This document shows, piece by piece, positions 25,966 through 60,784 of a stretch of DNA of 64,000 bases. The notes under the pieces are model-generated. The model did no database searches. It worked only from the letters and a program-made list of their open reading frames with translations, and was not told the DNA's origin. Origin of the DNA: Pseudomonas berkeleyensis. Lineage in GTDB: Bacteria; Pseudomonadota; Gammaproteobacteria; Pseudomonadales; Pseudomonadaceae. The stretch spans positions 3,786,001-3,850,000 of the forward strand of contig NZ_CP059139.1 in the NCBI RefSeq assembly GCF_014109765.1. Reading direction: 5' to 3'. The position numbers were made by a program, and so were the translations under genes. Numbering within the stretch: position 1 is the stretch's first letter; each line of letters starts with the position of its first letter.

Positions 25966-27798
25966 CTAAGCGACGCGGCGACGCCGCCATAGCCACAGCG
26001 CCAGCACACCGAGGGTCAGCAGCGCCGGCACCAGGGCGATATTGATCACCTTGAGCGTGCGGCCCAGCGCCTCGATATCGGCATTGAGCTGGTAACGCAC
26101 ATCGCGCAGCTCCTTGCGTATCTCCAGCTTCTGCTGGATGAAACGCTGCAGTGCCGTCTGCTGCTCCGGCGTCAACTCCAGTGCCTTGCTGGGGTCGTCG
26201 CTCTGCTGCAGTGCCGCCAGTTGCTGCTCGGTTTCTGCCAGGCGCGCCTGCAGCGCCTGCTCCTTGTCACGGAAACGCTGCTCGGCAGCACGTTGCAACG
26301 CTTCCACCACCACGAACGGACGGCTGAAGCGGCCACGCGAACGCACGCTGATGAGTGCTTCGGAACCGGCCAGATTATCCAGCGCATTGATGGTGAAGGT
26401 GCCATTGTCGGCCCAGGGCTGCGGAATGCGCTGACCGAAGAAATCCTGCACCTGCACCCACATGCGGTCGCTGAGGATATCGGTGTCGGCCACGGCGATC
26501 ACGTTGATGTTGTCAGCCTGCTTGAGCCCATCCTTGCGCCCTTCGATGCCATCGGGAAAGGCGCTCTGCGCCGGGCCGTCGATACGTGCGGCAATGGTGT
26601 AGCGCTCGCCGGTCGGCTCCAGTTCGCGGATCAGCTCCTCCGGGTTGCTCAGCATGGCGAAGCGCTGGGCATCGAACGGCATGGCGTATTCGGAGCTCTG
26701 CATCAGCGGCGTGAAACGCGTCTTCGCGCCTTCCACCGGTTCGAGAATCCCGGCAGTGGCGACGGTGATGCTCTCCAGCCCGGCGGTGGCGATATCGGTC
26801 TGATCCAGCGCCTTGCGCGGCAGGCTCAACCAGGCGGCGTGACGCACGGGGCGCTGGTTCTGGCCCATGTTCACCGACATCGCGTAGGAGCCGTCGCCCA
26901 GCACCTTGTCCGGCACCATGCGCAAACCCCAGGCCTTGAACAGCGGCTCGATGTTCGATGCTCTGTCCATCGCCACCTCGCCCGGCATATCACCCGTATC
27001 GGCCTCGGCGTAAGGGTCGACGAACACCATCAGCTTGCCGCCGCGCAGCACGAACTGGTCGATGGCGTACAACGCCTGCTCGGGCAGATGCTTCGGATGC
27101 ACCAGCCACAGCACCGAGATGTTGTCGGGGATCAGGTCGATGTCGGCCTTGAGGGTCTCGATATCGAACAGCTGGCGCACCTGCTCCAGCACCATCCACG
27201 GCGGCGTCGGTTGGCGTGCGGCCATGTCGAAGCCGCCGGTCATGGGCAGCCCGGAGAGCACGCCAACCACCGGCAACTGCGGCTGAGCCAGGGTCTGCAC
27301 CAGACGGCTCAGCTCATATTCAAGATGCTCCTCCTGATCCAGGGCGAAGAACGGGATCACCTGGGTGTCGTCCAGCGCGTTGGTGCCGGCCAGGCCGAAG
27401 TAGATCGAATCACCACCCTGTTGCAGCGGGATGCCCTGCAGGCCGAACTCGGCGGCCTTGTCCTCGTCCTCGGAGAACGGCTCGGGGTCGATGATGTGCA
27501 GGCGAATCTTGCCGCCGGCCTGCGCCTGGTAGGCCTTGAGCATTTCTTCCACGCGCTGGGCGTAGGTGCGCAGCGCCGGCAGATCCTTGGCCACCTTGTC
27601 CGAGTAGAAGAAGTACAGATTGATCGGCTCGTCCAGCTCGCCAAGTATCTGCTTGGTGCCGTCGGAAATGGTGTAGAGCTTCTGCTCGGTCAGATCCAGG
27701 CGGGCACCGCCCAGACCCAGGCCGGCCAGCAGGTTGAAGGCGACGAAGGCGACCGCGATCAGCAGCAACCCGGCGCCGGAATAGATCAGCTTTTTCAT
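25966..27798 (-). CDS. GldG-like ABC auxiliary protein
   Basis: 610 residues. An N-terminal membrane helix (LIYSGAGLLLIAVAFVAFNL), a large periplasmic region of the GldG/ABC-type uncharacterised family (LDLTEQKLYTISDGTKQILG; LPVVGVLSGLPMTGGFD; GGKLMVFVDPYAEAD), a coiled coil (about 500-560), and a C-terminal membrane helix (INIALVPALLTLGVLALWLW) ending in RRRRVA. Starts 9 bases after the permease stop. Probably a periplasmic partner of the transporter. Confidence 0.88.
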   Translation of the reverse strand: MKKLIYSGAGLLLIAVAFVAFNLLAGLGLGGARLDLTEQKLYTISDGTKQILGELDEPINLYFFYSDKVAKDLPALRTYAQRVEEMLKAYQAQAGGKIRLHIIDPEPFSEDEDKAAEFGLQGIPLQQGGDSIYFGLAGTNALDDTQVIPFFALDQEEHLEYELSRLVQTLAQPQLPVVGVLSGLPMTGGFDMAARQPTPPWMVLEQVRQLFDIETLKADIDLIPDNISVLWLVHPKHLPEQALYAIDQFVLRGGKLMVFVDPYAEADTGDMPGEVAMDRASNIEPLFKAWGLRMVPDKVLGDGSYAMSVNMGQNQRPVRHAAWLSLPRKALDQTDIATAGLESITVATAGILEPVEGAKTRFTPLMQSSEYAMPFDAQRFAMLSNPEELIRELEPTGERYTIAARIDGPAQSAFPDGIEGRKDGLKQADNINVIAVADTDILSDRMWVQVQDFFGQRIPQPWADNGTFTINALDNLAGSEALISVRSRGRFSRPFVVVEALQRAAEQRFRDKEQALQARLAETEQQLAALQQSDDPSKALELTPEQQTALQRFIQQKLEIRKELRDVRYQLNADIEALGRTLKVINIALVPALLTLGVLALWLWRRRRVA

Positions 27799-27807
27799 GG
27801 GCGCTCC

Positions 27808-28539
27808 TCAGTCGGCTTTCTTCAGATCGATGACCACGGCAGTGGCGGTCAGCCAGGCAGCGATCAGCGAGAGGAAATACAGCAGGTCGCGCAAATCGAT
27901 CACGCCCTTGCTGATGGCATCGAAGCGCACCAGGAAGCTCAGCGAAGCGATGGCATCCACCAGCCACTGCGGCGCCCAGGCAAAGGCGTCGAGCACCATC
28001 GGAAAACCGCTGACGATGAACAGGAAGCAGGCACTGACCGCGAGGATGAAGGCGATCACCTGGTTCTTGCTCAGCGCCGACATGCACGAGCCGATGGCCA
28101 GATAAGCCCCCGCCAACAACCAGCTGCCGATGTAACCGGTGACGATGGCGCCGTTGTCCGGCTCGCCCAGGTAGTTGACGGTGATGATCATCGGGAAGGT
28201 CAGCAGCAGTGCAATGCCGGCGAACACCCAGGCCGCCAGGAACTTGCCGGTGACCGCCTCGAAGCGGGTGATCGGCAGGGTCATCAGCAGCTCGATGGAA
28301 CCGGACTTGCGCTCCTCGGCCCACAGGCGCATGGCGATGGCCGGCACCAGGAACAGGTACAGCCAGGGGTGGAAGTTGAAGAAGGCCGAGAGGTTGGCCT
28401 GGCCGCCTTCGAAGAAGCCGCCCAGGTAGAAGGTGAACACCCCGGACAGCACCAGGAAGATCACGATGAACACGTAGGCCAGCGGCGTGGCGAAGTAGCT
28501 CGCCAGCTCACGTTTGAAGATCACGGGCAACTGGGTCAT
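27808..28539 (-). CDS. ABC transporter permease, GldF-like
   Basis: 243 residues with six predicted membrane helices and typical ABC-2 text (FKRELASYFATPLAYVFIVI; AEERKSGSIELLMTLPITR). Its ATG overlaps the stop of the ATPase gene (ATGA). Forms the membrane part of the Gld-type exporter. Confidence 0.9.
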   Translation of the reverse strand: MTQLPVIFKRELASYFATPLAYVFIVIFLVLSGVFTFYLGGFFEGGQANLSAFFNFHPWLYLFLVPAIAMRLWAEERKSGSIELLMTLPITRFEAVTGKFLAAWVFAGIALLLTFPMIITVNYLGEPDNGAIVTGYIGSWLLAGAYLAIGSCMSALSKNQVIAFILAVSACFLFIVSGFPMVLDAFAWAPQWLVDAIASLSFLVRFDAISKGVIDLRDLLYFLSLIAAWLTATAVVIDLKKAD

Positions 28540-29459
28540 GGCTGCTCTCCCCGGGTCAGGGTGCGGAACACTTCATCGAGTCGGCCACGCTCCACATTGA
28601 GTTCGCGCACCTTCCAGCCACGCTCGGCGATCAGCGCATTGACCTGCGGGAAGATCACCTCGCCCGCTTGCGCGAGCACGCTCAGGCTGTGCTCGCGGGT
28701 GTTTTCCTCGACACCGGCAACACCCGGCAGCGCCGCGAGGGCGGCCTGATCCAGTGCTTCATCGGCCACCAGCGTCACCGCCTGGTGGTAGCGCGAACGG
28801 CTCTCCAGCTCCAGCGGCGTGCCATCGGCCAGCAGGCGGCCCTGGGCAATCACCACGGCGCGGGTGCACAGCGCCGTGACCTCTTCGAGGATGTGGGTGG
28901 AAATGATCACGATCTTGTCCTGCGCCAGGCCCTGGATTAGCTGACGCACCTGATGTTTCTGGTTGGGGTCGAGGCCGTCGGTGGGCTCGTCGAGGATCAG
29001 CACGCGCGGGTCATGCAGAATCGCCTGGGCCAGACCGACACGGCGCTTGAAGCCTTTGGACAACGTTTCGATGCTCTGCGCCAGCACCTTCTCCAGCTCC
29101 ACCTGCTCCACCGCGCGCTGGACGCGCAGCGTCTTCTCGGCGCCGCGAAAGCCGCGAACCTCGGCAATGAACTCAAGGAAACCACGCACCGTCATGTCGC
29201 CATAGCACGGCGCACCTTCCGGCAGATAACCGATCTGCCGCTGGGCCTTGAGGGTCTGGGTCTGGATATCGCAACCGAGAATGCTCGCCGTGCCGGAAGT
29301 CGGTGCGAGAAAGCCGGTGAGCATCTTCATGGTGGTGGATTTACCGGCCCCGTTGGGACCGAGAAAGCCCAGCACTTCCCCTGGCTGGACTTGGAACGAC
29401 AGATCATCGACTGCCGTGTGCTGCGCAAAACGCTTGGTCAGGTTTCTTATTTCGATCAT
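28536..29459 (-). CDS. ABC transporter ATP-binding protein, GldA-like
   Basis: 307 residues. Walker A GPNGAGKSTTMKML, signature motif LSKGFKRRVGLAQA (degenerate LSxGx), Walker B RVLILDEPTDGLDPN, switch His in IIISTHILEE. The C-terminal 80 residues form the extra domain seen in ABC-2 ATPases (VTLVADEALDQAALAALPGV). First gene of its operon; substrate unknown. Confidence 0.93.
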   Translation of the reverse strand: MIEIRNLTKRFAQHTAVDDLSFQVQPGEVLGFLGPNGAGKSTTMKMLTGFLAPTSGTASILGCDIQTQTLKAQRQIGYLPEGAPCYGDMTVRGFLEFIAEVRGFRGAEKTLRVQRAVEQVELEKVLAQSIETLSKGFKRRVGLAQAILHDPRVLILDEPTDGLDPNQKHQVRQLIQGLAQDKIVIISTHILEEVTALCTRAVVIAQGRLLADGTPLELESRSRYHQAVTLVADEALDQAALAALPGVAGVEENTREHSLSVLAQAGEVIFPQVNALIAERGWKVRELNVERGRLDEVFRTLTRGEQP

Positions 29460-29623: not shown

Positions 29624-30586
29624 TCAGCGATCCAGGGGGCTGAGAACCGCAAGGCCACCTCGGTTGAGAACATGGGTATAGATCTGCGTGGTTCTGATAT
29701 CTGCATGACCAAGCAGTTCCTGAACAGTACGAATATCCTGCCCGGCCTCCAACAAATGCGTCGCAAAACAATGACGCAACGTATGAGGTGAAATGGGCTT
29801 TACGATACCGGTCGCTTTGGCTACTCGTTTGAGAGTGCGCTGTACACGCTTCTCATCCAGATGATGACGCCGCACGGCTCCGGAGCGCGGATCAACTGAT
29901 AACCCAGCTGCCGGGAAGACATACTGCCAGCCCAGTTCATGGGGCGCATTGGGGTACTTGCGAGACAAGGCAAAAGGCAACCATACATCGCCGCGCCCTT
30001 GCGCCAACTCCAACTCATGCAGCGCCTTCACCACCGCAAGGTGATTGCGCAGCGGTTGCTCCAAGCGTTGTGGCAGCATGGTCACGCGATCCTTCATACC
30101 CTTACCATCGCGAATGATGATTTCGTATCGGGAGAAATCCACATCCTTGATGCGCAAACGCAGTGCCTCCATCAAACGCATCCCCGTGCCATACAGCAGA
30201 CTGCACACCAACCAAATATCGCCATCCAGCCCACTCAGCACTCGACGCACCTCATCGACAGACAATACCACCGGTAACCGTTGCGGCTTCTTCGCCCGAA
30301 CAATATCGGCTAACCAAGGCAGATCCAGCCCCAGCACTTCCTTGTAAAGAAACAATAGCGCCGCCAGTGCCTGATTCTGAGTAGAAGCCGAGACATCCCG
30401 CCGTACAGCAAGATCAGTCAGGAAGGCCTCAACCTCCGCAGCGCCCATATCCTGGGGATGTCTGTAACGATGAAAGCGAATGAAACGCTTCACCCACTCG
30501 CAATAGACTCGCTCGGTACGGATGGAGTAGTGTTTGAGGCGAATTCGATCACGCATCTGATCGAGTAAACGAGGCTTATCATCCAT
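29624..30586 (-). CDS. intI: integron integrase (tyrosine recombinase)
   Basis: 320 residues, the normal length. Catalytic residues are all present: Arg137 ([10 protein letters not shown]), Lys162/165 (GKGMKDR), His268 and Arg271 ([13 protein letters not shown]), His294 ([10 protein letters not shown]) and nucleophile Tyr303 (QIYTHV). The IntI-specific insert is recognisable at about 235-258 ([19 protein letters not shown]). ATG 30586 has GGAAGG upstream; longer in-frame starts run through attI. Encoded divergently from the cassette array, as in all integrons. It catalyses attI x attC and attC x attC exchange. A leader inverted repeat overlaps its start (see 30585-30700). Confidence 0.96.
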
Positions 30587-30700
30587 GGTGCATAACCTTC
30601 CAAAATGGTCGTCCTGACCCGGAAAGCACCAGCCTAGACAGGGAATCGCACGATGACAAGGAAGGTTATCCACCAAAGCAGGCCGCAGGTTATGCACCAT
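30585..30700. promoter_or_regulatory. intI leader with repeated 14-15-bp motif
   Basis: ATGGTGCATAACCT (30585-30598), overlapping the intI start codon, is perfectly complementary to AGGTTATGCACCAT (30687-30700). A third copy, GGAAGGTTATCCACC, lies at 30660-30674. In the intI mRNA the outer copies could pair and hide the start region; alternatively they are integrase or repressor binding sites next to attI. Confidence 0.5.
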
Positions 30701-30723
30701 TTGGTGTCTATTTATAGTTAGGC
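30660..30723 (+). other. attI site of the integron
   Basis: The junction with the first cassette is the core GTTAGGC at 30717-30723; the crossover is expected between G30717 and T30718. The limits upstream are approximate and were set to include the two motif copies that may bind integrase. Confidence 0.7.
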
Positions 30724-30728
30724 AAATC

Positions 30729-31100
30729 ATGATCTCAGCAGTCATAAAAGTCACATTCAAAATTTCAGACATTCTAAGCTGGGTTGCGTGTCTATTTTTT
30801 GGGGCGCTCGCACTCAGCTATCCATTCATTAGTTTAAAGTTAGCTGCAAGAGATCCAAGTTACGGATCAATCGGCTTCATTGTCACAGTGATCGCAATAT
30901 CAACTGCCATGACCGCGTTATTCTATCTAAATACAAGAAGAAAATTTTTTGCGGCACTGATAATTTCAATTTACTTCCTATGCCTTGCAATCTACAAATC
31001 AACCGCAGTGCACTACTCGGTTTCGGCAGTAATAATTTTTATCATTACCGCCCCGCTATTGCTCTCATACATAAAAATGAAATTATTCAAAAACGCCTAA
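30729..31100 (+). CDS. cassette 1: small multi-helix membrane protein
   Basis: 123 residues, four predicted transmembrane helices ([73 protein letters not shown]), ending KMKLFKNA. Starts 12 bases after the attI junction with no evident ribosome binding site, so it may depend on the cassette promoter and leader. Stop codon lies inside attC1. Cassette spans 30718-31164. AT-rich compared with the chromosome. No family recognised. Confidence 0.7.
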
Positions 31101-31170
31101 CAAATGGTTCAAACCGCTCGCTTCGCTCACTGGGACGGGCTAAAGCCCGCCCCTTAACCAAACGTTAGCT
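31095..31170 (+). repeat. attC1 (76 bp)
   Basis: R'' GCCTAAC at 31095 and R' GTTAGCT at 31164, with GGTTCAA / TTAACC inner boxes and a GGGCTAAAGCCC hairpin tip. All complete attC sites here share this plan. Confidence 0.9.
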
Positions 31171-31179
31171 GTCCACACC

Positions 31180-31704
31180 ATGACCAACGCGTCCGCTCTG
31201 CTTCGAAAAATACATGAGGAATTTGGCTCCATCCCATTTCCAACTCATTGTGGCCTGTATGCGGCAATGGCGATGGATGATTGGATTTCTGACGAAACAG
31301 AATTGAGGAAGATTACACTTGAGAAGGATTACATAGGTGAGTGGTGGGATGTTCCGCTGGAGCACCTGAAAGATTGCCTTCATTACTCGCTTTGCTACCT
31401 AGATTCGAGCGGTGTTGAGTTCTATCTGCCTGCGTACATGGTCGCTCTGCTTAGGTTTCCAGAGCAATTTGATTGCCCAAAGTATTCTAGTGCTTGGAGT
31501 GTGATAATCCACTTCAGACTGAATGATGACGATGACGAGCTTAGGGAATACTCGCGAGATAAGTTCTCTAAAATTGACGGTGGGAAGAAACGAGTTTGCC
31601 GTGAGTTTCTGCAGTACGTTGCAGCATGCCCACTCTACAATAACCACGCAGCAGAACTTGCAAAGGAAGCCCTAGAGAATGAATTTTGGGCAGTTGACAG
31701 CTAA
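31180..31704 (+). CDS. cassette 2: DUF6714-like protein
   Basis: 174 residues, acidic and cytoplasmic. The segment SSGVEFYLPAYMVALLRFPE, preceded by WWDVPLEHLKDC, resembles DUF6714 proteins, whose hallmark is an A-Y-Y-L-P-A-F-like stretch. ATG 31180 is 15 bases into the cassette; the stop (TAA) overlaps attC2. Cassette spans 31165-31769. The protein at 33575 appears to belong to the same broad family. Function unknown; the family name is from memory. Confidence 0.65.
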   Translation: MTNASALLRKIHEEFGSIPFPTHCGLYAAMAMDDWISDETELRKITLEKDYIGEWWDVPLEHLKDCLHYSLCYLDSSGVEFYLPAYMVALLRFPEQFDCPKYSSAWSVIIHFRLNDDDDELREYSRDKFSKIDGGKKRVCREFLQYVAACPLYNNHAAELAKEALENEFWAVDS

Positions 31705-31775
31705 CAAATGGTTCAAGTCGCTCGTTTCGCTCACTCGGGACGGGCTAGAGCCCGCCCCTTAACCAAACGTTAGGC
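31699..31775 (+). repeat. attC2 (77 bp)
   Basis: R'' AGCTAAC at 31699, exactly complementary to this cassette's own leading GTTAGCT, and R' GTTAGGC at 31769. One extra base in CTCGGGA relative to attC1. Confidence 0.9.
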
Positions 31776-31780
31776 ACAAC

Positions 31781-32098
31781 ATGAGCCTTGAGAATCTCCA
31801 ACAGTATTCAGCATCAACGAGGGAGCTCGTTCTTCCCTTGCCGCTGGCTCTTGAAGCAATTGCACTTATGGAACAACTCAAAATTCCAGTATTTGGCTGG
31901 GAGGGCTGGATTCGTCTTCCAGGTGGCCGTCTTGGTCATTCAGCTTTGCATCAGGGCACAGCATTCGAGTGCGCAATTACTACCTCTTCAGAATACACCT
32001 GGCTAAAGCAGACTATCCAAGAGTCCTACGATTTACATCAGTCGCCCCCCGAAGCACCTAGCATTGAACTGCTCTTTTGTATCACTACAGGAGCCTAA
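31781..32098 (+). CDS. cassette 3: unknown small protein
   Basis: 105 residues, soluble. Contains PVFGWEGWIRLPGGRLGHS followed by GTAFECAITT; the Gly-Trp-Glu-Gly-Trp block followed by G-H-S gives it a recognisable signature, seen in my recollection in other cassette proteins. Begins 12 bases inside the cassette; stop overlaps attC3. Cassette spans 31770-32162. Function unknown. Confidence 0.65.
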   Translation: MSLENLQQYSASTRELVLPLPLALEAIALMEQLKIPVFGWEGWIRLPGGRLGHSALHQGTAFECAITTSSEYTWLKQTIQESYDLHQSPPEAPSIELLFCITTGA

Positions 32099-32168
32099 CA
32101 AGTGGTTCAAACCGTTCGCTTCGCTCACTGGGACGGGCTAAAGCCCGCCCCTTAACCAAACGTTATAG
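32093..32168 (+). repeat. attC3 (76 bp)
   Basis: R'' GCCTAAC at 32093, R' GTTATAG at 32162. Body nearly identical to attC1. Confidence 0.9.
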
Positions 32169-32175
32169 GGCAAAC

Positions 32176-32553
32176 ATGGATAACCTCGACAAGATTCGAA
32201 AACTCATACCGCTGTGGTATGCCCACAGAAAGTGGGCCGAGGAGCTTCTTGTCCGTGTATTTGATTTGGAATTCGCTGAGGAAATACTAAAACTAGAAAA
32301 CCGAGGAAATAAGCAAATTCCCGGGACAAACTGGATGTATCGGACTCACGGAGTTGGCGTAGACATATATCGAACCGCAGATGTAGGCGGCATTGACTTC
32401 GATTTCAATAAGGCCGATCCAGATGAGTGGCATTTACAGGTATTCTTTGAAAAACAATACAACGAAGGAAACCTGCCTTTCGCAGAGTATCGAGAACTTT
32501 ATGAAGATGAGGGGCTACTCCAGTGCTTCATAAAAATGGCGCTTGAGGAGTGA
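32176..32553 (+). CDS. cassette 4: DUF6896-like protein
   Basis: 125 residues, acidic. Contains THGVGVDIYRTADVGGIDFD followed by FNKADPDEWHLQVFFEKQYN; the G-x-x-V...DFDFN...D.W.L..F pattern resembles DUF6896, a family seen in immunity-like and cassette proteins. ATG 32176 lies 13 bases inside the cassette (32163-32626); a longer reading frame running back through attC3 is rejected. Family call from memory, moderate confidence. Confidence 0.65.
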   Translation: MDNLDKIRKLIPLWYAHRKWAEELLVRVFDLEFAEEILKLENRGNKQIPGTNWMYRTHGVGVDIYRTADVGGIDFDFNKADPDEWHLQVFFEKQYNEGNLPFAEYRELYEDEGLLQCFIKMALEE

Positions 32554-32556
32554 GCC

Positions 32557-32632
32557 CTATAACAAATGGTTCAAATCGCTCGCTTCGCTCACTGGGACGG
32601 GCTAGAGCCCGCCCCTTAACCAAACGTTAGCC
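32557..32632 (+). repeat. attC4 (76 bp)
   Basis: R'' CTATAAC at 32557, complementary to the cassette's leading GTTATAG, and R' GTTAGCC at 32626. Confidence 0.9.
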
Positions 32633-32651
32633 GGCAAAGAGAGAATATGGA

Positions 32652-33056
32652 GTGAACCAAAGCGAAGACGTCGAGTATCGGCAGGCTGCAGCAAACTACA
32701 GCACCTCCTATATGAGTAGTGCAAAATGGCTAAAGCTATTTCGTGCAGTGATTTCTGCTGGTATTCCGCTTGAGCGAGTACGATGGAAGTTTATTGATAC
32801 GGAGCATTTCATTGAGGTGTCTTTCCCTGATGAATGGGATCTACAACCTACACGTTTTGCTGATGGTAAGTTTCAGCCGTTCGAGTATCGGTGGTTGGAG
32901 TTCGTCTTCATTCCACATGCGTTTAAACCGAGGGCTGGCGTGGCGTATGAAAAGAAGCAAGATACGGCCACTGTTGTGGCGGTTTTGGAAAAGATCGGCC
33001 AGTTCCCCATCGAGGTTTCTCCGGAAGGCATCACAATCCGTGGGTATCGTGTCTAA
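32652..33056 (+). CDS. cassette 5: unknown protein
   Basis: 134 residues, soluble. Contains SAKWLKLFRAVISAGIPLER, RVRWKFIDTEHFIEVSFPDE and EYRWLEFVFIPHAF. GTG start at 32652, 25 bases into the cassette (32627-33135); an internal ATG at residue 21 is an alternative. The stop falls just upstream of attC5. No family recognised with confidence. Confidence 0.6.
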   Translation: MNQSEDVEYRQAAANYSTSYMSSAKWLKLFRAVISAGIPLERVRWKFIDTEHFIEVSFPDEWDLQPTRFADGKFQPFEYRWLEFVFIPHAFKPRAGVAYEKKQDTATVVAVLEKIGQFPIEVSPEGITIRGYRV

Positions 33057-33065
33057 GACGTTGCC

Positions 33066-33141
33066 GGTTAACAATCGGTTCAAATCGTTCGCTTCGCTCA
33101 CTGGGACGGGCTAAAGCCCGCACCTTAACCAAACGTTAGAG
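33066..33141 (+). repeat. attC5 (76 bp)
   Basis: R'' GGTTAAC at 33066 (one mismatch to the complement of the cassette start GTTAGCC) and R' GTTAGAG at 33135. Confidence 0.88.
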
Positions 33142-33150
33142 GCACATGCT

Positions 33151-33477
33151 ATGGACAGCAGCGTTGCAAGTGTCATGAACAACACAAAGTGGGATGAAAT
33201 CAGGCTTACTATGGCCGCCCTTGATCCAAGCCCAAGCTACAGAACCCGTTGCATTGATAATGGTTACATTTCCAACTGGGATCACGATTGGCTTTATCAC
33301 TTTCGCATTGGCGGGTACGAGTGCATTGAATGGCTTGAAATTTCCTGCCAAACAGAGCAAGAAAAAAGCAATGTATTAAATGCGCTCAAAATCATTCACG
33401 TCCCAGGTGGCGCCACAGCTACTGGCTTCATGATCTATGGCTATATAAAAGCAGGGCAAGCAATTGAGTACATATGA
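33151..33477 (+). CDS. cassette 6: DUF6678-like protein
   Basis: 108 residues. NTKWDEIRLTMAALDPSPSY, then GYISNWDHDWLYHFRIGGYE and CIEWLEI match my recollection of DUF6678 (a W-D-G-E-W-F-Y-H-F-like core followed by I-E-W). No transmembrane segment. ATG 33151 is 15 bases inside the cassette (33136-33562). DUF6678 proteins often occur near polymorphic toxin or cassette loci; an immunity-type role is speculative. Confidence 0.65.
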   Translation: MDSSVASVMNNTKWDEIRLTMAALDPSPSYRTRCIDNGYISNWDHDWLYHFRIGGYECIEWLEISCQTEQEKSNVLNALKIIHVPGGATATGFMIYGYIKAGQAIEYI

Positions 33478-33479
33478 GC

Positions 33480-33568
33480 CTCTAACTACTGGTTCAAATC
33501 GCTCGCTTCGCTCACTGGGGCAGTCAAACTGCTACGCGCTTGACTGCCCCTTAACCTGAACGTTAGGT
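33480..33568 (+). repeat. attC6 (89 bp, divergent tip)
   Basis: R'' CTCTAAC at 33480 and R' GTTAGGT at 33562. The tip differs from the others: GGGGCAGTCAA and TTGACTGCCCC form an 11-bp stem in place of the GGGACGGGCT/AGCCCGCCCC stem, so structure is kept while sequence changes. Confidence 0.88.
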
Positions 33569-33574
33569 GCAATC

Positions 33575-34033
33575 GTGGATATCGTTGGTTTCGTAGAAAG
33601 TACGTATCAATTATTCGAGGCCTTTGAAAAGCCTGAGTCAGCTACAGATATTGAACACTGCGAAGAATGTAGAGATCATAACGACGAGATCAATAATGTA
33701 AACAAGCGCGATTTGTCACCTGAACAAATTGGTACTGTATGCTGGGGTGTCTCTTCCTTTTTAACACCTCAGGCAATGGGCTATTATATACCAAGATTTA
33801 TCGAACTAGCCGTAACAGGGCAGAACGACAAAGAAGGCTCGCCTTACATGTGTCTATTCATTAACCAAATAGGATTAAATGCAGAGTCTTTGCAATTTTC
33901 AGAGTTTTCGGCCGAACAACGACAGGCAGTGCATAAAAGTTTAATTATTCTCAAAACAAAATACATGAGCACATTACTTGAGCACTGCTGGGAAAACGAT
34001 ATTGATACGGCAATAACACAGTGGAGCACCTAA
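33575..34033 (+). CDS. cassette 7: DUF6714-like protein
   Basis: 152 residues, acidic. HCEECRDHNDE near residue 30 and SSFLTPQAMGYYIPRFIELA in the middle fit the DUF6714 pattern. GTG start at 33575, 12 bases into the cassette (33563-34097); no ATG nearby in frame. The stop overlaps attC7. Two Cys in HCEEC may bind metal. A likely distant relative of the cassette 2 protein. Confidence 0.65.
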   Translation: MDIVGFVESTYQLFEAFEKPESATDIEHCEECRDHNDEINNVNKRDLSPEQIGTVCWGVSSFLTPQAMGYYIPRFIELAVTGQNDKEGSPYMCLFINQIGLNAESLQFSEFSAEQRQAVHKSLIILKTKYMSTLLEHCWENDIDTAITQWST

Positions 34034-34103
34034 CAACTGGTTCAAACCGCTCGCTGCGCTCACTGGGACGGGCTAAAGCCCGCCCTTTAACCAAACGTTA
34101 AGC
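34028..34103 (+). repeat. attC7 (76 bp)
   Basis: R'' ACCTAAC at 34028, complementary to GTTAGGT at the cassette start, and R' GTTAAGC at 34097. Confidence 0.9.
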
Positions 34104-34122
34104 GATCACAAGGAAGTTTCCA

Positions 34123-34503
34123 ATGCACCCTGAGCTAAAACATGCCTTAAGCGTATTCTTTTACGCCCTCGCTTACATCTTTTCTCCCTTCTTCTTAATT
34201 TATGGCCTATTTACAGGTGGAGTTTCAGGGCATGCTATATTGGGAATTTCATTATCCATTCTCTCTGCAAGCTACGTACTTGCAAGCCTGCCTAAAGCAC
34301 CAGTTGCCAATGGAGAGGCTCTTACCGAAGCCATATTTTGGTTACTATCGTCAGGGAGCATTGCAGCAGGACTAGTTTCTTTATTAAGACAATCATGGAT
34401 AGCGCTCTCAATATCGCTAGCACTATGTGCTCTATCGCTATTAGTCTGGGATCTATCCACCGACAAAACAAAAACCAGAATTAAACGTGCACCGGTCAGC
34501 TAG
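34123..34503 (+). CDS. cassette 8: small membrane protein
   Basis: 126 residues with four predicted transmembrane helices (about 8-30, 35-55, 68-85, 90-108) and a basic C-terminal tail (KTKTRIKRAPVS). ATG 34123 has AGGAAG 6 bases upstream, so it carries its own translation start. Cassette spans 34098-34579. Unrelated in sequence to cassette 1. Function unknown. Confidence 0.7.
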   Translation: MHPELKHALSVFFYALAYIFSPFFLIYGLFTGGVSGHAILGISLSILSASYVLASLPKAPVANGEALTEAIFWLLSSGSIAAGLVSLLRQSWIALSISLALCALSLLVWDLSTDKTKTRIKRAPVS

Positions 34504-34508
34504 TGTGC

Positions 34509-34585
34509 GCCTAACAACTGGTTCAAACCGTTCGCTTCGCTCACTCGGGATCGGCTGAAGCCGGCCCCTTAACTAAACGTTATGT
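34509..34585 (+). repeat. attC8 (77 bp)
   Basis: R'' GCCTAAC at 34509 (one mismatch to the complement of GTTAAGC) and R' GTTATGT at 34579. The tip reads GATCGGCTGAAGCCGGCCCC, a compensated variant. Confidence 0.88.
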
Positions 34586-34592
34586 GTACCTT

Positions 34593-35206
34593 ATGAAATC
34601 ACTACTAGCTTTAGTCTCTTTGATACTCGCAATTAATTGCTATGCGAGTGAACCCAGCAGTAGCTTGATGAGGGAGCTAGACACTATTAATGAGCAGCCG
34701 ATTAAAAATCTAGCCACATCACCCAACAAAGAAATCTATCGTTTTTATTGGTCTCGCAGCTCAAACAGCACTCTGACCTACACAATCGACCTAACCCCCA
34801 CTAGCAAACCAACTTTAATCATAAAAAAATTTTCCAGAAATCATCCTCGAACCTTATTATCGGAGAAAAAACTGAACTAACTAAAACCCATCTTCAGAAC
34901 CTTAAAAGTTTTCTGAATGGTGCACAATTCTGGACGCTACCTTCCGAAGAGAAGAATGCCGGGCTTGATGGAGCCACATGGATATTGGAAGGAATAAAAA
35001 ATGGCCAATATCACTACACCGAGCGCTGGTCACCATTACCGCCATATTTTGGCTGGAGCGGCGCATGGAAAGACGGCGAGCTGGTTATGAAACGCTTGAA
35101 CCCGCCATTTAAAAAACAAGTTAAGCACTCGGACGAAGTCGGCCTTGACTTCCTCTGTCTTTACATCATGCTCATGGCAGATCAAGAGCCAGAGGTTATC
35201 TACTAG
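34593..35206 (+). pseudogene. cassette 9: secreted protein gene split by a -1 frameshift
   Basis: The first part (34593-34880) encodes a signal peptide (MKSLLALVSLILAINCYA) and runs to a stop at 34880. The -1 frame continues without a stop from about 34829 to 35206 and contains FWTLPSEEKNAGLDGATWIL, then GQYHYTERWSP, a signature I associate with a family of small secreted proteins ('FW.LP...G.DGA.WILEG...G.YH...RWSP'). The change of frame falls on A AAA AAA (34823-34829), in the phase required for -1 slippage. The joined product would be 204 residues. It is either a one-base loss from an A8 tract (decay or sequencing error) or real frameshifting. Cassette spans 34580-35278. Confidence 0.7.
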
Positions 35207-35216
35207 TGCCAGGCAC

Positions 35217-35284
35217 ATATAACAACTGGTTCAAGCCGCTCACTCGGGACTGGCTAAAGCCCGCCCCTTAGCCAAACGTTAGAC
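35217..35284 (+). repeat. attC9 (68 bp, shortened)
   Basis: R'' ATATAAC at 35217 and R' GTTAGAC at 35278. Eight or nine bases of the CGCTTCGCTC arm are missing compared with the others; the tip stem is also imperfect (ACTGGCTAAAGCCCGC). Confidence 0.85.
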
Positions 35285-35300
35285 CCTTCAGGAGAAGTCG

Positions 35301-35597
35301 ATGATATTCGCCGAAATGGAGTACTCAGAAGAATATTGGGAATTTCATGAAGAGCTAAAGCAGTACCTATCTCAATATTTCGATAATGTCGAGCATGGAC
35401 TGCAATCTGACTCTTATATTTGGATACTCATCGAAAAAAACAAGATAACCCTAGATACATTTTCCTCAATGAAACATCAAGTCAAATCCGCTAAGCCAGG
35501 AGCACACGTCCAGCAAGTCATCAGTGTGCTTCAGAAAAAATACAAAATTAATGTTTACGCAACTCCCGACCTGGAAGGGCATGAAGATTTTTTATAA
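35301..35597 (+). CDS. cassette 10: unknown small protein
   Basis: 98 residues, acidic. MEYSEEYWEFHEELKQYLSQ, then SYIWILIEKNKITLDTFSSM and KHQVKSAKPG; the W-I-(W/L)...D-T-F-x-S-M-K-x-x-V-K-S run is distinctive and, in my recollection, shared by many cassette proteins. ATG 35301 follows GGAGAAG. The cassette begins at 35279 and its attC is truncated. Function unknown. Confidence 0.65.
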   Translation: MIFAEMEYSEEYWEFHEELKQYLSQYFDNVEHGLQSDSYIWILIEKNKITLDTFSSMKHQVKSAKPGAHVQQVISVLQKKYKINVYATPDLEGHEDFL

Positions 35598-35616
35598 TCT
35601 GCCCCGCAGTGGCGAG

Positions 35617-35669
35617 CCATAACAAATGGCTCAAGTGACTCAAACCGCTCGCTGCGCTCACTGGGACGG
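35617..35669 (+). repeat. truncated attC10 (array end)
   Basis: R'' CCATAAC and the left half through CTCACTGGGACGG are present, with a small internal duplication (CAAGTGACTCAAACC). The right half and R' are missing; similarity stops at about 35669. Cassette 10 therefore could not be excised as a unit, and the array ends here. Confidence 0.8.
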
Positions 35670-35781
35670 AGGAAAAGGGGAAAATTTATTTATTAGCACC
35701 CTAAGCAATCGAAAAATAAATCTGCTCTTTTACTTCACCCACTTTTCTTTTCATTTCCCTCTAACTCAAGTAGGAAACTAT

Positions 35782-36210
35782 ATGCCAGCATGGAAACCAA
35801 CGGGAAATCGCGATTCACTTCTCAACACACGTTTGAATGCAGGCAGCTGGAATGGCCGACCAATTTATATCCACTTAACTTCAGCAGCCGGCTATACCGC
35901 AATCAACCTTAACAAACGCATCAACGCCACGCGCACGGGTGGAAAAAATGGAATTTATCTTAGCCCCTCCTACCAATGTTTTAGCCCAGCCGATGCATTT
36001 ACCCTGCTATTTTTTGAAAATGCGTTGTATCAAAACAACGCCAGTCATTGCCTGGTATTCTCTTTCAACTTTGAAGCCGAAGTGGAGGATAACCCAATCA
36101 GTTCAGGAAGTTGGGTACGCGAAATAATTTACCGCAGGGATATCACTTTCCCTGAAATCACCATATTGTATCGTGGCGCAAATATTTTCGTGGATGGCAA
36201 CTGGGAATAA
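35782..36210 (+). CDS. possible ADP-ribosyltransferase-like protein
   Basis: 142 residues, AT-rich. IYIHLTSAAGYTAINLNKRI, then GGKNGIYLSPSYQCFSPADA, fits the H-x-T-x-x-(A)-G-x-x-x-I ... G-I-Y-L layout of small ART toxins (HYD1-like), and SWVREIIYRRDITFPEITIL ends like their last strands with a candidate catalytic Glu. This is a weak, memory-based match. ATG 35782 follows AGGAAACT; a longer frame back into the broken attC is rejected. It lies directly after the truncated array end, with no attC of its own. It could be toxin, toxin fragment or neither. Confidence 0.5.
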   Translation: MPAWKPTGNRDSLLNTRLNAGSWNGRPIYIHLTSAAGYTAINLNKRINATRTGGKNGIYLSPSYQCFSPADAFTLLFFENALYQNNASHCLVFSFNFEAEVEDNPISSGSWVREIIYRRDITFPEITILYRGANIFVDGNWE

Positions 36211-36286: not shown

Positions 36287-36433
36287 CTAGGCTCTGTACG
36301 AAAAGTGTCTGCGCTCGGTGATGCTGCGTTAAAAACAGGCTCAGAATGCTCATTTACAGCATGTAAACTCCGCTTCCTCGCCTGTTTTTGCCTTGCCTGA
36401 CCTTCGCTCGACGACTTTTCGTACAGACCCTAG
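36287..36433. repeat. 147-bp palindromic repeat element
   Basis: Ends CTAGG(C/G)TCTGTACGAAAAGT at 36287-36306 and 36414-36433 (19 of 20 matching as inverted repeats). The core carries CTGCGTTAAAAACAGGCT, TGCTCATTTACAGC, TGTAAA and CCTGTTTTTGCC, shared with the element at 7848 although the ends differ. No coding capacity. Confidence 0.7.
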
Positions 36434-36971: not shown

Positions 36972-37376
36972 TTGAAATACCTCTACCCTCTACTTCTACT
37001 CATTTCGACCACTGTCCTCGCCGCCGAGGCAGACGAAGATCCCTGCAACGCCCAGGGTGGTGGCGTGATGGCCGGTTACCTGTGCATCGCCCAGAAAGCC
37101 AAGGTGGTGGATGAACAGTTGAACGCCGAATACCAGCTCGCCCTGAAACGCATCGAGGAAGAAGAACGCGCCCTGCGTCAGACCTGGCCGAACACCGAGC
37201 TGGTCAGCCTGTTTCGCGCAGCACAACGGGCGTGGCTGAACTTCCGCGATGCCGAGTGTCAGTTCGCGGGTATCTCTTCGACGCCTTCGCCCTGGCAAGG
37301 CGTTCAGGTCGAGGAATGCAAGTTGAGAATGACCATCGAGCGCACGGAGTACTTCAGGGGTGTGGTGGCAGGATGA
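36972..37376 (+). CDS. LprI-like (DUF1311) secreted protein
   Basis: 134 residues. Signal peptide KYLYPLLLLISTTVLAAEA, then a lysozyme-inhibitor LprI/DUF1311 domain: DPCNAQGGGVMAGYLCIAQK, LNAEYQLALKRIEEEER, FRAAQRAWLNFRDAECQF and EECKLRMTIERTEYF, with the four Cys in the family pattern. The start is TTG at 36972 (no in-frame ATG at the signal peptide). Its stop overlaps the next gene, so both are made together. Periplasmic. Confidence 0.82.
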   Translation: MKYLYPLLLLISTTVLAAEADEDPCNAQGGGVMAGYLCIAQKAKVVDEQLNAEYQLALKRIEEEERALRQTWPNTELVSLFRAAQRAWLNFRDAECQFAGISSTPSPWQGVQVEECKLRMTIERTEYFRGVVAG

Positions 37377-38181: not shown

Positions 38182-38727
38182 TCAGGCGCGCGTGGTCTCT
38201 ATGCGCTTGACTGCTTCGACCCAGGCTAGGTCAAGGCGAGTCTGCTCCACATCCAGCCCCTGTTGCTCCATCGCCTCTCGGTGCGCGTCGATCTCGTGAA
38301 CCATCTGGCTCAGTTCACTGGAGTTGCCATCGAGCTGGTGCATCTGGGTTACGCCAAGGTGATAGAAGCGCAGCAGTTTCATTGCCGTCTCATCGCCCTG
38401 GGCAACGCCCGCCTTGACGTGATGCATGACGTTGGTGATGCGCATCAGGCTGCGCTTGAGCCGCCAGCCGTAAACGGCCGGCGCCATCCACGGGCGTGAC
38501 CAGAACTGCAGGCGCACCAGTGCCGCTGTCAGGGTAAAGCCAGTCAGCACACCGAGCAGGTTCCAGCGGAAGTTGTCGTCACCACCCGGCTCACCGAACA
38601 GCTGCACGCTGAGTGTCGCCAGCAACATGGCGAGGATGACGAAGATCGCCGCCACCAGCATCGTGATACGGCGGGTCTGCTGACGATATTTCTCGGGACT
38701 GGTGGGGACAATTTCAAACATGCGCAT
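38182..38727 (-). CDS. DUF3087 membrane protein
   Basis: 181 residues with two N-terminal transmembrane helices (MLVAAIFVILAMLLATLSVQ; WNLLGVLTGFTLTAALV) and a cytoplasmic helical tail (HLGVTQMHQLDGNSSELSQM). Matches DUF3087 along its length. Function unknown. Confidence 0.85.
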   Translation of the reverse strand: MRMFEIVPTSPEKYRQQTRRITMLVAAIFVILAMLLATLSVQLFGEPGGDDNFRWNLLGVLTGFTLTAALVRLQFWSRPWMAPAVYGWRLKRSLMRITNVMHHVKAGVAQGDETAMKLLRFYHLGVTQMHQLDGNSSELSQMVHEIDAHREAMEQQGLDVEQTRLDLAWVEAVKRIETTRA

Positions 38728-38826
38728 GGGCTCTGAAACGAGGGCAAGGCGCGATGTTACGCCAGCGCAGCGGATTGCACGAACCTGCGATCGTTACCGA
38801 CCGCTTGCCGCAAGCCGCTGCACACG

Positions 38827-39657
38827 TCAGGGAACAGCATGGCGCAACCATTCACTGGGGCTGGCTCCGACCTTGCGGCGAAACGCACGCGCCAGCGCCG
38901 AGGGGCTTTCGTAGCCGACCTCATCGGCGATCAGCGCCATGGGCCGGCCTTCACGCAGGCGCTTCTGTGCCAGGCTGACGCGCCAGCCCACCAGATAATC
39001 CGCCGGGGTGGCGCCGACCACCTGGTGAAAATGCGCCGCGAAACTGGCGCGTGACATGCCAGCCAGCGCCGCCAGCTCGGCCACCGACCAGCCATGTTCC
39101 GGTCTCTCATGCAGTTGATTGAGCGCACGCGCCAGGCGCGGCTCGGCCAACCCGGCCATCATCCCCGAAGCCAGCTCGCGGCTGTTCATCAAATGCCGCA
39201 GCAGCTGGATCACCATCAACTCGAACAGGCGGTTGAGCACCAGCTCACGACCGCAGTCCTCCCCTTCTGCCTCGGCGAACAGCCAGTCCAGGCAACCGCT
39301 CAGGCTCGGCAGCTCGCGCAACGGTTTGACGATGGCGCCAGGCAAGGCGCGCGACAGCGGATTGTCGATACCACCGTCGAACGCCAGCGTGGCGCACACC
39401 AGTTCGGCGCCATCGGCCTCGCTGGCCGTCATCCGGTGCAGGCGCGGCTGCGCCACCAGCATCAGGCTCGGTTCTTCCAGGCGCAGCTCGCGGCCATCGC
39501 CCTCGCGAAAGCTCATGCGCCCGGCGCGCAACAGGTGAATGTAGCCATGCGGCTCATGCTCGCCATGGTTACTGGTGCCGCAGAACCCGCCACGGTGGAA
39601 GGTGCTGGCGTGCAGGTTGAAGTGATGCAGCAGGCTGGACAGGCGATCCATGGTCAT
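38827..39657 (-). CDS. AraC-family regulator with cupin-type N-domain
   Basis: 276 residues: a cupin_6-like sensor (SSLLHHFNLHASTFHRGGFC, HGYIHLLRAGRMSF) and a C-terminal AraC double helix-turn-helix (WSVAELAALAGMSRASFAAH; DEVGYESPSALARAFRRKVG). ATG 39657 follows AGGAG at 6 bases. Divergent from the AhpD-like and glutaredoxin genes and probably regulates them. The paired Cys/His residues of the N-domain could sense electrophiles or redox state (inference). Confidence 0.88.
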   Translation of the reverse strand: MTMDRLSSLLHHFNLHASTFHRGGFCGTSNHGEHEPHGYIHLLRAGRMSFREGDGRELRLEEPSLMLVAQPRLHRMTASEADGAELVCATLAFDGGIDNPLSRALPGAIVKPLRELPSLSGCLDWLFAEAEGEDCGRELVLNRLFELMVIQLLRHLMNSRELASGMMAGLAEPRLARALNQLHERPEHGWSVAELAALAGMSRASFAAHFHQVVGATPADYLVGWRVSLAQKRLREGRPMALIADEVGYESPSALARAFRRKVGASPSEWLRHAVP

Positions 39658-39778
39658 TGCGCACTCCTGGACGATCTGTCGCATAACATCGACGATCTGA
39701 ATCCGAAAAGCCAGATCGATTCACTAGCATGGCTCCAGGCTTGAACAACAAGCTCCCCATCAAGACTGGAGAATCACC

Positions 39779-40297
39779 ATGACGCGTATCACTGCATTGC
39801 CCTTCGAACAAGCCTCGGCCAGCGCCCAGGCGCAACTGGAAGGCATCCGCAAGGGCCTCGGTTTCATTCCCAACACCTTCGCCACCCTGGCTCACGCCCC
39901 TGCGGCATTGAGCGGCTACCTGGCGCTGTCCCAGGCGCTCGGCAAGGGCACGCTGAATGCCAAGGCGCGCGAAGTGGTGGCGCTGGCCAGCTCGCAGGTC
40001 AATGGCTGCGAATACTGCCTGGCCGCGCACACCCTGTTCGCCGGCAAGGCTGGCCTGAGCGAGGCGGATATTCGCAGCGCCCGTGACGGCGAATTCGATG
40101 CCGTGGCGCGCCTGACCCAACAGGTCGTCGATAGTCGCGGCCGCCTCAGCGATGCGCAACTGCAGGCCGCACGTGAGGCCGGGCTGAGCGATGCCGCCAT
40201 CGTCGAAGTGGTGGCCAACGTCGCCCTGATGACGCTGACCAACTACCTCAACAACCTGGCGGAAACCGATGTCGACTTTCCGCCCGTAGCCGTCTGA
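39779..40297 (+). CDS. AhpD/carboxymuconolactone decarboxylase-family protein
   Basis: 172 residues of the CMD/AhpD-like peroxidase-related family. The active-site block is SSQVNGCEYCLAAHTLFAGK with the C-x-x-C-x-x-x-H pattern used for thiol peroxidase chemistry. FIPNTFATLAHAPAALSGYL and the C-terminal VEVVANVALMTLTNYLNNLA are typical. Operon with the glutaredoxin gene 18 bases downstream, supporting a thiol-redox role. Confidence 0.88.
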   Translation: MTRITALPFEQASASAQAQLEGIRKGLGFIPNTFATLAHAPAALSGYLALSQALGKGTLNAKAREVVALASSQVNGCEYCLAAHTLFAGKAGLSEADIRSARDGEFDAVARLTQQVVDSRGRLSDAQLQAAREAGLSDAAIVEVVANVALMTLTNYLNNLAETDVDFPPVAV

Positions 40298-40315
40298 CAA
40301 GACAGGAGGTGCGCC

Positions 40316-40570
40316 ATGCAAGCCGTCACTCTTTACACCACCGGCCACTGCCCCTACTGCGTGAACGCCAAAGCACTGCTGACGCGCAAGGGCGTGGCCT
40401 TCAAGGAAATCGACGTGGGCAGTTCGCCACAGCGGCTGGCGGAAATGCTGCAACGCAGCAACCGCCGCAGTGTGCCGCAGATCTTCATCGGCGAACGCCA
40501 TGTCGGCGGCTTCGATGATCTTGCCGCACTGGAGCGCGGCGGCGAACTGGATACGCTGCTGCAAGCCTGA
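40316..40570 (+). CDS. grxC: glutaredoxin 3
   Basis: 84 residues. Thioredoxin fold with active site CPYC in TTGHCPYCVNAKALLTRKGV, cis-Pro region SVPQIFIGERHVGG and GSH-contacting GGFDD. Reduces disulphides with glutathione in the cytoplasm. ATG follows AGGAGGTG. A perfect GGCCGGCC stem (40579-40598) after the stop may end the operon. This may be a second glutaredoxin specialised for the AhpD-like partner. Confidence 0.92.
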   Translation: MQAVTLYTTGHCPYCVNAKALLTRKGVAFKEIDVGSSPQRLAEMLQRSNRRSVPQIFIGERHVGGFDDLAALERGGELDTLLQA

Positions 40571-40578
40571 ACGTCGAA

Positions 40579-40598
40579 GGCCGGCCTGATGGCCGGCC
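40579..40598 (+). terminator. hairpin after grxC
   Basis: GGCCGGCC-TGAT-GGCCGGCC, perfect 8-bp arms; no clear T-run follows, so Rho-independent termination is only possible. The following 210 bases up to the chemoreceptor hold a half REP copy (CGTAGGGTGTCGCGCC at 40640) and no gene. Confidence 0.5.
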
Positions 40599-40808
40599 AT
40601 CGCCTAATGCCAGTCAGTTAAGCATCAGGATAAGGTTACGTAGGGTGTCGCGCCCTCCTGGCCGGTAATTGTGCTGGCCTACTCCTTTTCGCTACGGAGG
40701 TCGCCTTTGCCCTCATGCGTCGGGCCATCGCTGCCGATACAGAAGCGGCAACATCGGCCCGATAGGCTGAGCATTGCCCTGCGCCTTATCTCGAAATGGA
40801 GTATCCCC

Positions 40809-45452: not shown

Positions 45453-45653
45453 GGGCGCACGCAGAGGCAGTGTGCGGCGGCCCGACCAGCACGATTAAAC
45501 CTGCCATGCGCACCATGCGCGTGACACCCGAAATCTACATTACACAGGCGCCTGCGACTTGAACAGAGCCCGCCCGGCGTCCATTGGTCGAATCCCGCAG
45601 GCGGCGCCAAGTCCGGCGTCGCGGCGACAGCGAGGAGACAATGCAGAGCGCGG
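45453..45653. other. gap between nhaA and the DUF2236 gene
   Basis: Promoter region of nhaA on the minus strand plus a short unannotated stretch after the DUF2236 gene. No gene or clear repeat is seen. Confidence 0.3.
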
Positions 45654-60116: not shown

Positions 60117-60514
60117 ACATTATCCCTTGTGATGCTCGTGCCGCTCATAAAAAATATGCAGCCATCATCTTATTCAACATCAAGTTTCAACATCAAAGTA
60201 CTGGGCATTTACACAATTATCTGTAAAAACGAATCATCGTTTATTGCTCTCGATCATCTGATATCTGTTCTGGCTATAAATTTTCGGCCATATATCATTA
60301 GAGTCTTACGTATACCGACTAGACGATGCCACAGCTACGGCAAACTAGTCACCGACGACCGGTGACTCGCCCCTGTCTGGAAGCGCTCGATGACCGCGTC
60401 TAACCAATAGTCCCCCCCACACCTTGTCCTCTCTACTTGCCCGCGCTACAGTCCGCCCGTCACGGTCAATCCCGTGACCGGGCGTGAGAACCCGAATTTC
60501 GTCCAAGGCGCGGA
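60117..60514. other. AT-rich gap upstream of the CHAT gene
   Basis: About 60120-60350 is AT-rich with no convincing gene, and must contain the CHAT promoter. Towards 60480 a hairpin GTCACGG-TCAATC-CCGTGAC (60459-60478) begins the structured region that precedes the C4-like RNA. Confidence 0.4.
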
Positions 60515-60546
60515 AGCGCCATAGCAGTGTAGCCGGCGCTTTTTTT
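60515..60546 (+). terminator. attenuator-like terminator before the C4-like RNA
   Basis: AGCGCC (60515) pairs with GGCGCT (60535), followed by seven T residues to 60546. It would stop plus-strand transcription just before the structured RNA, an arrangement like the leader terminators of P4-type immunity regions. Confidence 0.65.
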
Positions 60547-60569
60547 GTGCCCGGTTACCGCATTTCTAT

Positions 60570-60644: not shown

Positions 60645-60784
60645 TCCATAGCTCGTGAGAAGGCTGGGAAGCGGCTCCTTAATCTGTCCAAGGAGCATAA
60701 GGAAAATGCACTATCCCCCTTTTACCCAAGGGCTCCGCCCTGGGCTGCTGGCTGTTGTGCCGACTTCCGCTTTGGAGGTGCTGC

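Follow-up and report, generated by a model that had tools for sequence, protein, structure and literature searches.

A 64 kb stretch of the Pseudomonas berkeleyensis chromosome, referred to here as the window, carries an integron composed of an integrase gene (intI), an adjoining attI region and an array of ten gene cassettes delimited by attC sites. This element is likely a sedentary Pseudomonas integron that draws on a cassette pool shared with other species, part of its content, cassettes 2, 4 and probably 7, consisting of immunity genes that stand without their toxins and would act against Rhs toxins. Its anatomy is that of an integron, its cassettes form discrete units, two of them recur whole in other genomes, and the chromosomal site it occupies is held by two integrase lineages among relatives. 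The coordinates of all features are collected in Table 1.

Counted from the ATG near the start of other IntI matches, intI comprises 320 codons. It scores 499 bits against TIGR02249, the NCBI integron-integrase model (cut-off 265), and its product shares 91% identity with the integrase of Pseudomonas sp. 8O. The attI region holds two pairs of inverted repeats, 30585-30598 with 30687-30700 and 30586-30601 with 30660-30675. The integron is chromosomal, being carried on a single contig of 5.65 Mb, and the guanine-cytosine (GC) content of the array is 45.6%, against 62.6% and 63.6% in the flanks. A complete intI, an attI junction at GTTAGGC, cassette boundaries following the G/TT rule and a cassette GC content lower than that of the flanks had all been described in the earlier note on this DNA, and each of these descriptions is borne out. 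With an integron-specific integrase, attC sites that are alike and begin at attI in one orientation, a chromosomal place common to related species and a cassette content that varies between relatives, the element falls among the sedentary chromosomal integrons. Two other classes were considered and set aside. As a class 1 mobile integron it fails on NF011946, the model we take to represent mobile-class IntI, where it reaches 383.8 bits against a cut-off of 435, and on its cassettes, which hold no resistance family. A super-integron is a large array, usually of more than 20 cassettes, a size that the ten present here do not attain.

Table 1 Features of the integron and its surroundings, in window positions.
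Feature	Position	Strand	Remarks
ABC (ATP-binding cassette) transporter operon	25966-29459	minus	flanks the integron; marks the shared docking site
intI	29624-30586	minus	integron tyrosine recombinase, intact
attI region	30587-30723	none	from intI to cassette 1; ends with recombination site GTTAGGC, 30717-30723
Cassette 1	30718-31164	plus	open reading frame (ORF) 30729-31100; small, membrane-like by eye; no family over cut-off
attC1	31095-31170		complete
Cassette 2	31165-31769	plus	ORF 31180-31704; Pfam DUF6714, 1.3e-15
attC2	31699-31775		complete
Cassette 3	31770-32162	plus	ORF 31781-32098; no family
attC3	32093-32168		complete
Cassette 4	32163-32626	plus	ORF 32176-32553; Pfam DUF6896, 4.6e-9
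attC4	32557-32632		complete
Cassette 5	32627-33135	plus	ORF 32652-33056; Pfam DUF6678, 3e-6
attC5	33066-33141		complete
Cassette 6	33136-33562	plus	ORF 33151-33477; Pfam DUF6678, 4e-23
attC6	33480-33568		complete
Cassette 7	33563-34097	plus	ORF 33575-34033; DUF6714-like, 25.8 bits, below Pfam cut-off of 27
attC7	34028-34103		complete
Cassette 8	34098-34579	plus	ORF 34123-34503; membrane-like by eye; no family over cut-off
attC8	34509-34585		complete
Cassette 9	34580-35278	plus	ORFs 34593-34880 and 34985-35206, in different frames
attC9	35217-35284		complete
Cassette 10	35279-35669	plus	ORF 35301-35597; no family; ends in the cut attC
attC10	35617-35669		cut short at about 35669
Hairpin element	35667-35735	none	short, AT-rich, by fold; entered by the tenth attC
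142-aa ORF	35782-36210	plus	after the cut attC; eight database relatives; no family
MITE-like (miniature inverted-repeat transposable element) element	36287-36433	none	20-bp inverted ends; CTAG on both sides

The attC sites were modelled twice. Covariance model R1, made from the nine complete sites of the window, scores these at 72-104 bits by construction and the tenth at 34.5 bits. Model R2 was built from 110 attC sites in the loci of relatives with no window row among them, and it is partly dependent on the window in that its rows were found through R1. Run on the 64 kb window, R2 recovers all nine complete sites (67.9-101.9 bits) and the remnant of the tenth (30.4 bits), with no further attC match at E up to 0.1. 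The count of nine complete sites of 68-89 bp and one truncated site given in the earlier note thus stands, and the lack of covariance-model matches, which would have spoken against it, is not what the window yields. On the 110 rows, 94.4% of cells are paired, against no more than 57.0% when the fold is slid by 1-3 columns, and 137 cells are changed on both sides against a shuffled mean of 34.8; since the rows were fitted to the fold of the window model, both counts favour that fold. One attC alignment retains 150 of 155 matches. Pieces resembling attC, taken from window 30718-35284, match plasmids of Pseudomonas and other hosts in 181 records, so related attC sites appear to travel on plasmids.

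Independent of these folds are the tests of end pairing and whole-cassette recurrence, neither of which uses the attC models. The nine complete cassettes, 393-699 bp in length, and the cut tenth share a single orientation. When a cassette is free and circular, its first bases are paired with its terminal R'' box, and the variable triplets of each 5' start were accordingly compared with the R'' of the same cassette, a G-U pair counting half a point. Cassettes 1-9 reach 25 of 27 points, six of the nine being perfect, whereas shuffled partners average 12.9 (none of 20,000 shuffles attains 25) and R'' boxes paired with the start of the next array cassette reach 8 of 27. Cassette 10 scores 0 of 3, indicating that its end is foreign to it or has changed. 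Aligned against genome G148, cassette 2 matches over 605 of 605 bp without a gap at 93.6% identity, and cassette 3 matches genome G109 end to end over 394 columns with one gap at 91.6%. The neighbours of both cassettes are unshared (DNA matches longer than 150 bp, fetched loci), so the correspondence extends to single cassettes only; recurring whole without their neighbours, cassettes 2 and 3 have moved, and they look like whole-cassette transfers between genomes. The cassettes are thereby confirmed as real units of the integron. The boundaries given in the earlier note are correct, with two small amendments: cassette 9 consists of two ORFs and is probably a broken gene, and the tenth attC runs into the hairpin element.

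Relatives of IntI at E 1e-60 are present in 31 of 249 genomes of the genus, the window's own included, and in 12 fetched loci an integrase gene, in some cases broken, adjoins the same ABC operon. Tallied in ten of these twelve, the loci carry 0 to 17 attC sites each; several of the twelve arrays are cut by contig ends, making the contents a lower limit. No cassette protein of the window is found at the same site in the 12 relatives (tblastn, E 1e-5 and 1e-4), and a single distant pair links cassette 5 to an ORF of L044 at 26% identity. One fixed order of the same genes in all relatives, the outcome that the earlier note had set against cassette mobility, is therefore not observed. The same comparison bears on the possibility that the array is a fossil, with intI inactive and ten cassettes frozen in place. 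Such decay could be read from the cut tenth attC, the probably broken cassette 9, the foreign elements and the rearranged right end; set against an open intI, the perfect end pairing in most complete cassettes, a site at which no window cassette was found in 12 relatives, and copies of two cassettes at 93.6% and 91.6% identity in other genomes, it is quite improbable.

The platform itself differs between close relatives. In a left-flank protein tree of 11 rows, the window forms one clade with L042, L043, L044, L067 (Pseudomonas sp. 8O), L121 and L128 (support 100/99), and over the coding DNA of the left flank the window shares 88-95% identity with these six. From the first intI bin onward, identity to five of the six is 63-68%, while L067 retains 78-86%, reaching as much as 97% within attI; S. 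nitrititolerans, which is more distant, shows 73-76%. The boundary is bracketed by two bins, one ending at 29620 and the next, in intI, starting at 29624. Five of the seven clade genomes have a usable IntI, and these five divide into two deep clades of the IntI tree; a tree forcing them together is rejected by the approximately unbiased test (p 2e-51, a descriptive value because the group was named after the identities had been seen). Rows containing stops or fewer than 300 (one tree) or 290 (the other) aligned residues were dropped and, in the former tree, identical rows merged, L043 and L121 being left out of the IntI trees and retained in the DNA comparison. The window IntI clusters with the integrases of L067, P. 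sagittaria, S. stutzeri K1 and S. nitrititolerans, all at the same site. The group also takes in P. oryzagri (L088), with a support of 94 in one tree and 85/85 in the other; no ABC operon was found within the stretch fetched for that species. On this grouping, the window's integrase type may be the older tenant, with the other five relatives as recipients. The switch appears to lie at or near the stop codon of intI, pointing to an exchange of the platform at a fixed site, either by homologous recombination through the flanks or by repeated insertion.

With regard to content, the families of cassettes 2 and 4 lead to Rhs toxins. In a survey of 249 genus genomes at E 0.001, the window genome excluded, seven DUF6714 genes were found, one of them below the Pfam cut-off: four stand in tandem behind one Rhs gene with an Ntox16 C-terminus, a fifth follows a different Rhs gene, from which a small ORF separates it, and two are cassettes in attC arrays. 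The tandem arrangement is seen at locus L206 (8756-17593), where the Rhs gene ending in Ntox16 is followed by four DUF6714 genes, some of them separated by small membrane-like ORFs, and the whole resembles an immunity island. A search of 298 genomes yields 59 matches to DUF6896 outside the window genome, and at 20 of these loci the upstream side was inspected for a match to an Rhs C-terminal region of 250 residues. Ten of the 20 loci have one. Eight of these matches extend over the Rhs core, seven adjoining the gene and one (L225) separated from it by an ORF, and two (L234, L236) comprise the toxin end alone. Among intI loci, the same Rhs region is matched in 0 of 80. The motif DGHHR, present in the upstream region of 7 of the 20 DUF6896 loci, is assigned to Tox-ParB in PMC3482391. 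Judged by gene order, the families of cassettes 2 and 4 occupy the immunity position behind Rhs genes. Cassettes 2, 4 and 7, three of the ten, belong to Rhs-linked families (one match lying below its cut-off) and are probably orphan immunity genes; we infer that the DUF6714 and DUF6896 proteins neutralise toxins.

Families named for immunity recur in the cassettes of relatives. ORFs of at least 60 codons were taken between neighbouring attC sites no more than 1500 bp apart, and 243 of the resulting 264, from 46 relative loci, entered the count, 21 being left out as their loci (L207, L208 and L210) had been chosen for DUF6714 or DUF6678. Pfam families named for immunity account for at least 8 matches in the 243 ORFs, among the 25 of 27 and 25 of 44 families listed: at least one for colicin/pyocin immunity, two for Barstar, three for Imm-NTF2-2, one for Imm33-like and one for Tsi6. 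The control consists of 120 ORFs out of 131 from the flanks, none longer than 350 codons; they were called mechanically and may include false frames. No named immunity family occurs among 71 of its 84 family rows listed; one scan of the same 120 ORFs is represented by 25 of 75 rows. The excess of cassettes over flanks gives a one-sided Fisher p of 0.04, provided that the unlisted control rows hold none.

Several points weigh against reading part of the array as immunity genes. The excess over the flanks is weak and suggestive only. Ten of the 20 DUF6896 loci lack an Rhs match and 39 of the 59 matches lie outside the sample; cassette 4 shares only 21-24% identity with seven other DUF6896 members, and the DUF6714 match of cassette 7 stays below the Pfam cut-off. 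DUF6678, the family of cassettes 5 and 6, has an Rhs neighbour within 1.5 kb in 0 of 12 loci. Position near an Rhs gene is insufficient to prove immunity, and a scan with the sigma-70-like consensus, the sole promoter search made, matched nothing upstream of cassette 1. Seven of the ten cassettes (1, 3, 5, 6, 8, 9 and 10) give no functional lead. For cassette 1, a bacteriocin immunity family of NCBIfam is matched weakly (E 0.025, 14.9 bits, cut-off 50); cassette 6 is predicted with confidence to adopt an alpha+beta fold with no clear PDB match, and the first ORF of cassette 9 has a signal-peptide-like start by eye.

These points lend substance to a plainer account, in which the integron is ordinary and its cassettes are a random environmental sample, the immunity families being a chance share that implies no role. 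This is a serious contender, though somewhat short of probable. It agrees with the seven cassettes lacking a lead, the small share of named immunity families in relatives and their weak excess over flank ORFs, and with PADLOC, which matches 0 of 10 proteins (cassettes 2-10, with the first ORF of cassette 9, and the ORF after the array). It accounts less well for the two or three cassettes, out of ten, whose families are linked to Rhs genes and for immunity families that recur in relatives' cassettes and are absent from the listed flank rows. The earlier note, which saw no clear function in any cassette, is upheld for most of them and needs amending for cassettes 2, 4 and 7, for which there is an immunity lead; the small enzymes, toxin-antitoxin and defence genes that it suggested find no support in PADLOC or in the Pfam searches, where no cassette contains an enzyme family over cut-off. 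The exchange of the integrase, the further cassette sites of the genome and the rearrangement of the right flank are additions to that note.

Integrons are said to be presented as anti-phage libraries in Science 2025 and Nat Microbiol 2025. The window array resembles such libraries in carrying cassettes of unknown function that would serve biological conflict, and differs from them in that its lead is to contact-delivered bacterial toxins rather than phages. That the cassettes are mainly anti-phage, as in Vibrio integrons, and escape existing models is unlikely given the PADLOC result and the finding of DUF6714 and DUF6896 behind Rhs toxins instead. In its favour, HEPN/Abi families are present among the cassettes of relatives, and work cited in PMC12444791 holds that prediction-less Vibrio cassettes can be anti-phage.

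At its right end, the array is bordered by foreign elements. The hairpin element folds at -14.9 kcal/mol over 77 nt, a value without a shuffled control, and L148 holds a similar-looking hairpin by eye. The 142-aa ORF that follows is possibly a former cassette; considered as an ADP-ribosyltransferase-like toxin, it has no Pfam match, a model with a predicted local distance difference test score (pLDDT) of 44.3 and a PDB profile match of E 0.78 at best. The MITE-like element has many partial or whole copies in the window genome and in relatives. In Pseudomonas sp. 8O, a 70% identical element lies between intI and the ABC gene (L067 10960-11153). Further downstream, an LprI-family gene (36972-37373) shares 70% identity with a gene that S. 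nitrititolerans carries in a cassette, a likeness by which it may be a former cassette. None of the relatives compared was found to have the window's right flank next to its integron. The right flank of the relatives sits about 65-70 kb leftward in the window genome (G000:C1:3745892-3750838), and window 38221-40600, part of the right flank, is located elsewhere in G063, G202 and G248. As flanks are displaced on both sides of the comparison, the right edge of the array is, by this mapping, a rearrangement breakpoint. In these three genomes, window 38221-40600 lies about 23-43 kb away from a second cassette site that lacks intI, so two cassette regions may have been brought together by the rearrangement.

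At a distance from the array, the window genome contains another three attC sites with E below 1e-4, a fourth match at E 0.57 being discounted. Two of them, at G000:C1:3714280-3714852 (L147 6281-6853), enclose one cassette; no integrase match was found within the fetched stretch, and the same flanks, about 91-94% identical, occur in G063 (6 attC), G248 (2) and G202 (0 found). Beside this site lies an ORF of 243 aa (L147 6858-7589), HNH-type by eye. The third attC, at G000:C1:4377480-4377554 (L148 5481-6166), is accompanied by one cassette-like ORF; in G202 the corresponding location is occupied by a second intI with five attC sites. On the expected side, the window genome retains 14 residues that match the end of the second G202 integrase (13 identical; E 0.014 alone), so the site is a probable decayed remnant of a second integron. 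Elsewhere in the window, Rfam identifies a C4 antisense RNA with its target at 60446-60650, which we take to be typical of P1/P7-like phage immunity regions, and an nhaA-I riboswitch-like RNA is present at 45473-45529, upstream of a gene named nhaA-like by eye. A coiled-coil protein encoded at 59061-60116, with a CHAT/caspase-like C-terminus by eye, is possibly a defence gene.

Cassette capture by integron recombination is established for integrons generally. In the window, IntI would recombine the folded attC of a circular single-gene cassette with the attI beside intI, leading to insertion, and the promoterless cassette genes would be read from the platform or via read-through. Cassettes carrying an immunity gene without its toxin would protect the cell from Rhs toxins delivered by neighbours on contact, and would be retained or lost as competitors change, the pool being common to other species. 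From sequence, we infer that IntI is active and that the cassettes are expressed.

Pseudomonas chromosomal integrons are reportedly the subject of works by Vaisvila (2001), Holmes (2003), and Coleman and Holmes (2005). The known ones share with the window array an intI beside attI, attC sites that are alike, single-gene cassettes mostly of unknown function and a chromosomal location; the window array differs in its ten cassettes, in the DUF6714 and DUF6896 cassettes, and in lying next to an ABC operon at which the integrase of relatives is of another lineage. Known examples named in PMC3108266 are P. stutzeri Q and BAM, P. alcaligenes and P. mendocina, and such integrons are also referenced in PMC2426708. 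Polyimmunity loci, as described in PMC3482391, likewise combine toxin-less immunity-family genes, variable content and an adjoining tyrosine recombinase, and adjacent recombinases such as XerC/D are there thought conceivably to drive their accumulation. Unlike these loci, the window genes each have their own attC, and only two to three of ten are immunity-linked. PMC5361080 likens immunity-gene arrays to integrons and reports no evidence yet for an integrase in effector-immunity insertion. PMC11089894 mentions immunity proteins when naming the functions of effectors predicted to be encoded by cassettes, so a precedent in print appears to exist for cassette-borne immunity genes. No paper naming DUF6714, DUF6896 or DUF6678 was found in the open-licence literature.

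In conclusion, the integron itself is ordinary, chromosomal integrons being known in Pseudomonas; what is new is its reading as an immunity bank and that of an exchanged platform. More tentatively, and with considerable doubt, the integron may work as an integrase-driven polyimmunity bank, in which Pseudomonas species pass one another, as attC cassettes, orphan immunity genes that counter the Rhs toxins of rivals, and exchange the platform at a fixed docking site. How immunity genes gather without their toxins is an open question, for which cassettes 2, 4 and 7 provide concrete candidates with a known recombination mechanism and with likely toxin partners that can be named, Ntox16 and Tox-ParB. 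The swapping of integrase platforms at a single chromosomal site can likewise be tested across the species group. If true, the polyimmunity bank would supply the recombinase that earlier work on immunity arrays had suspected or had found no evidence for.

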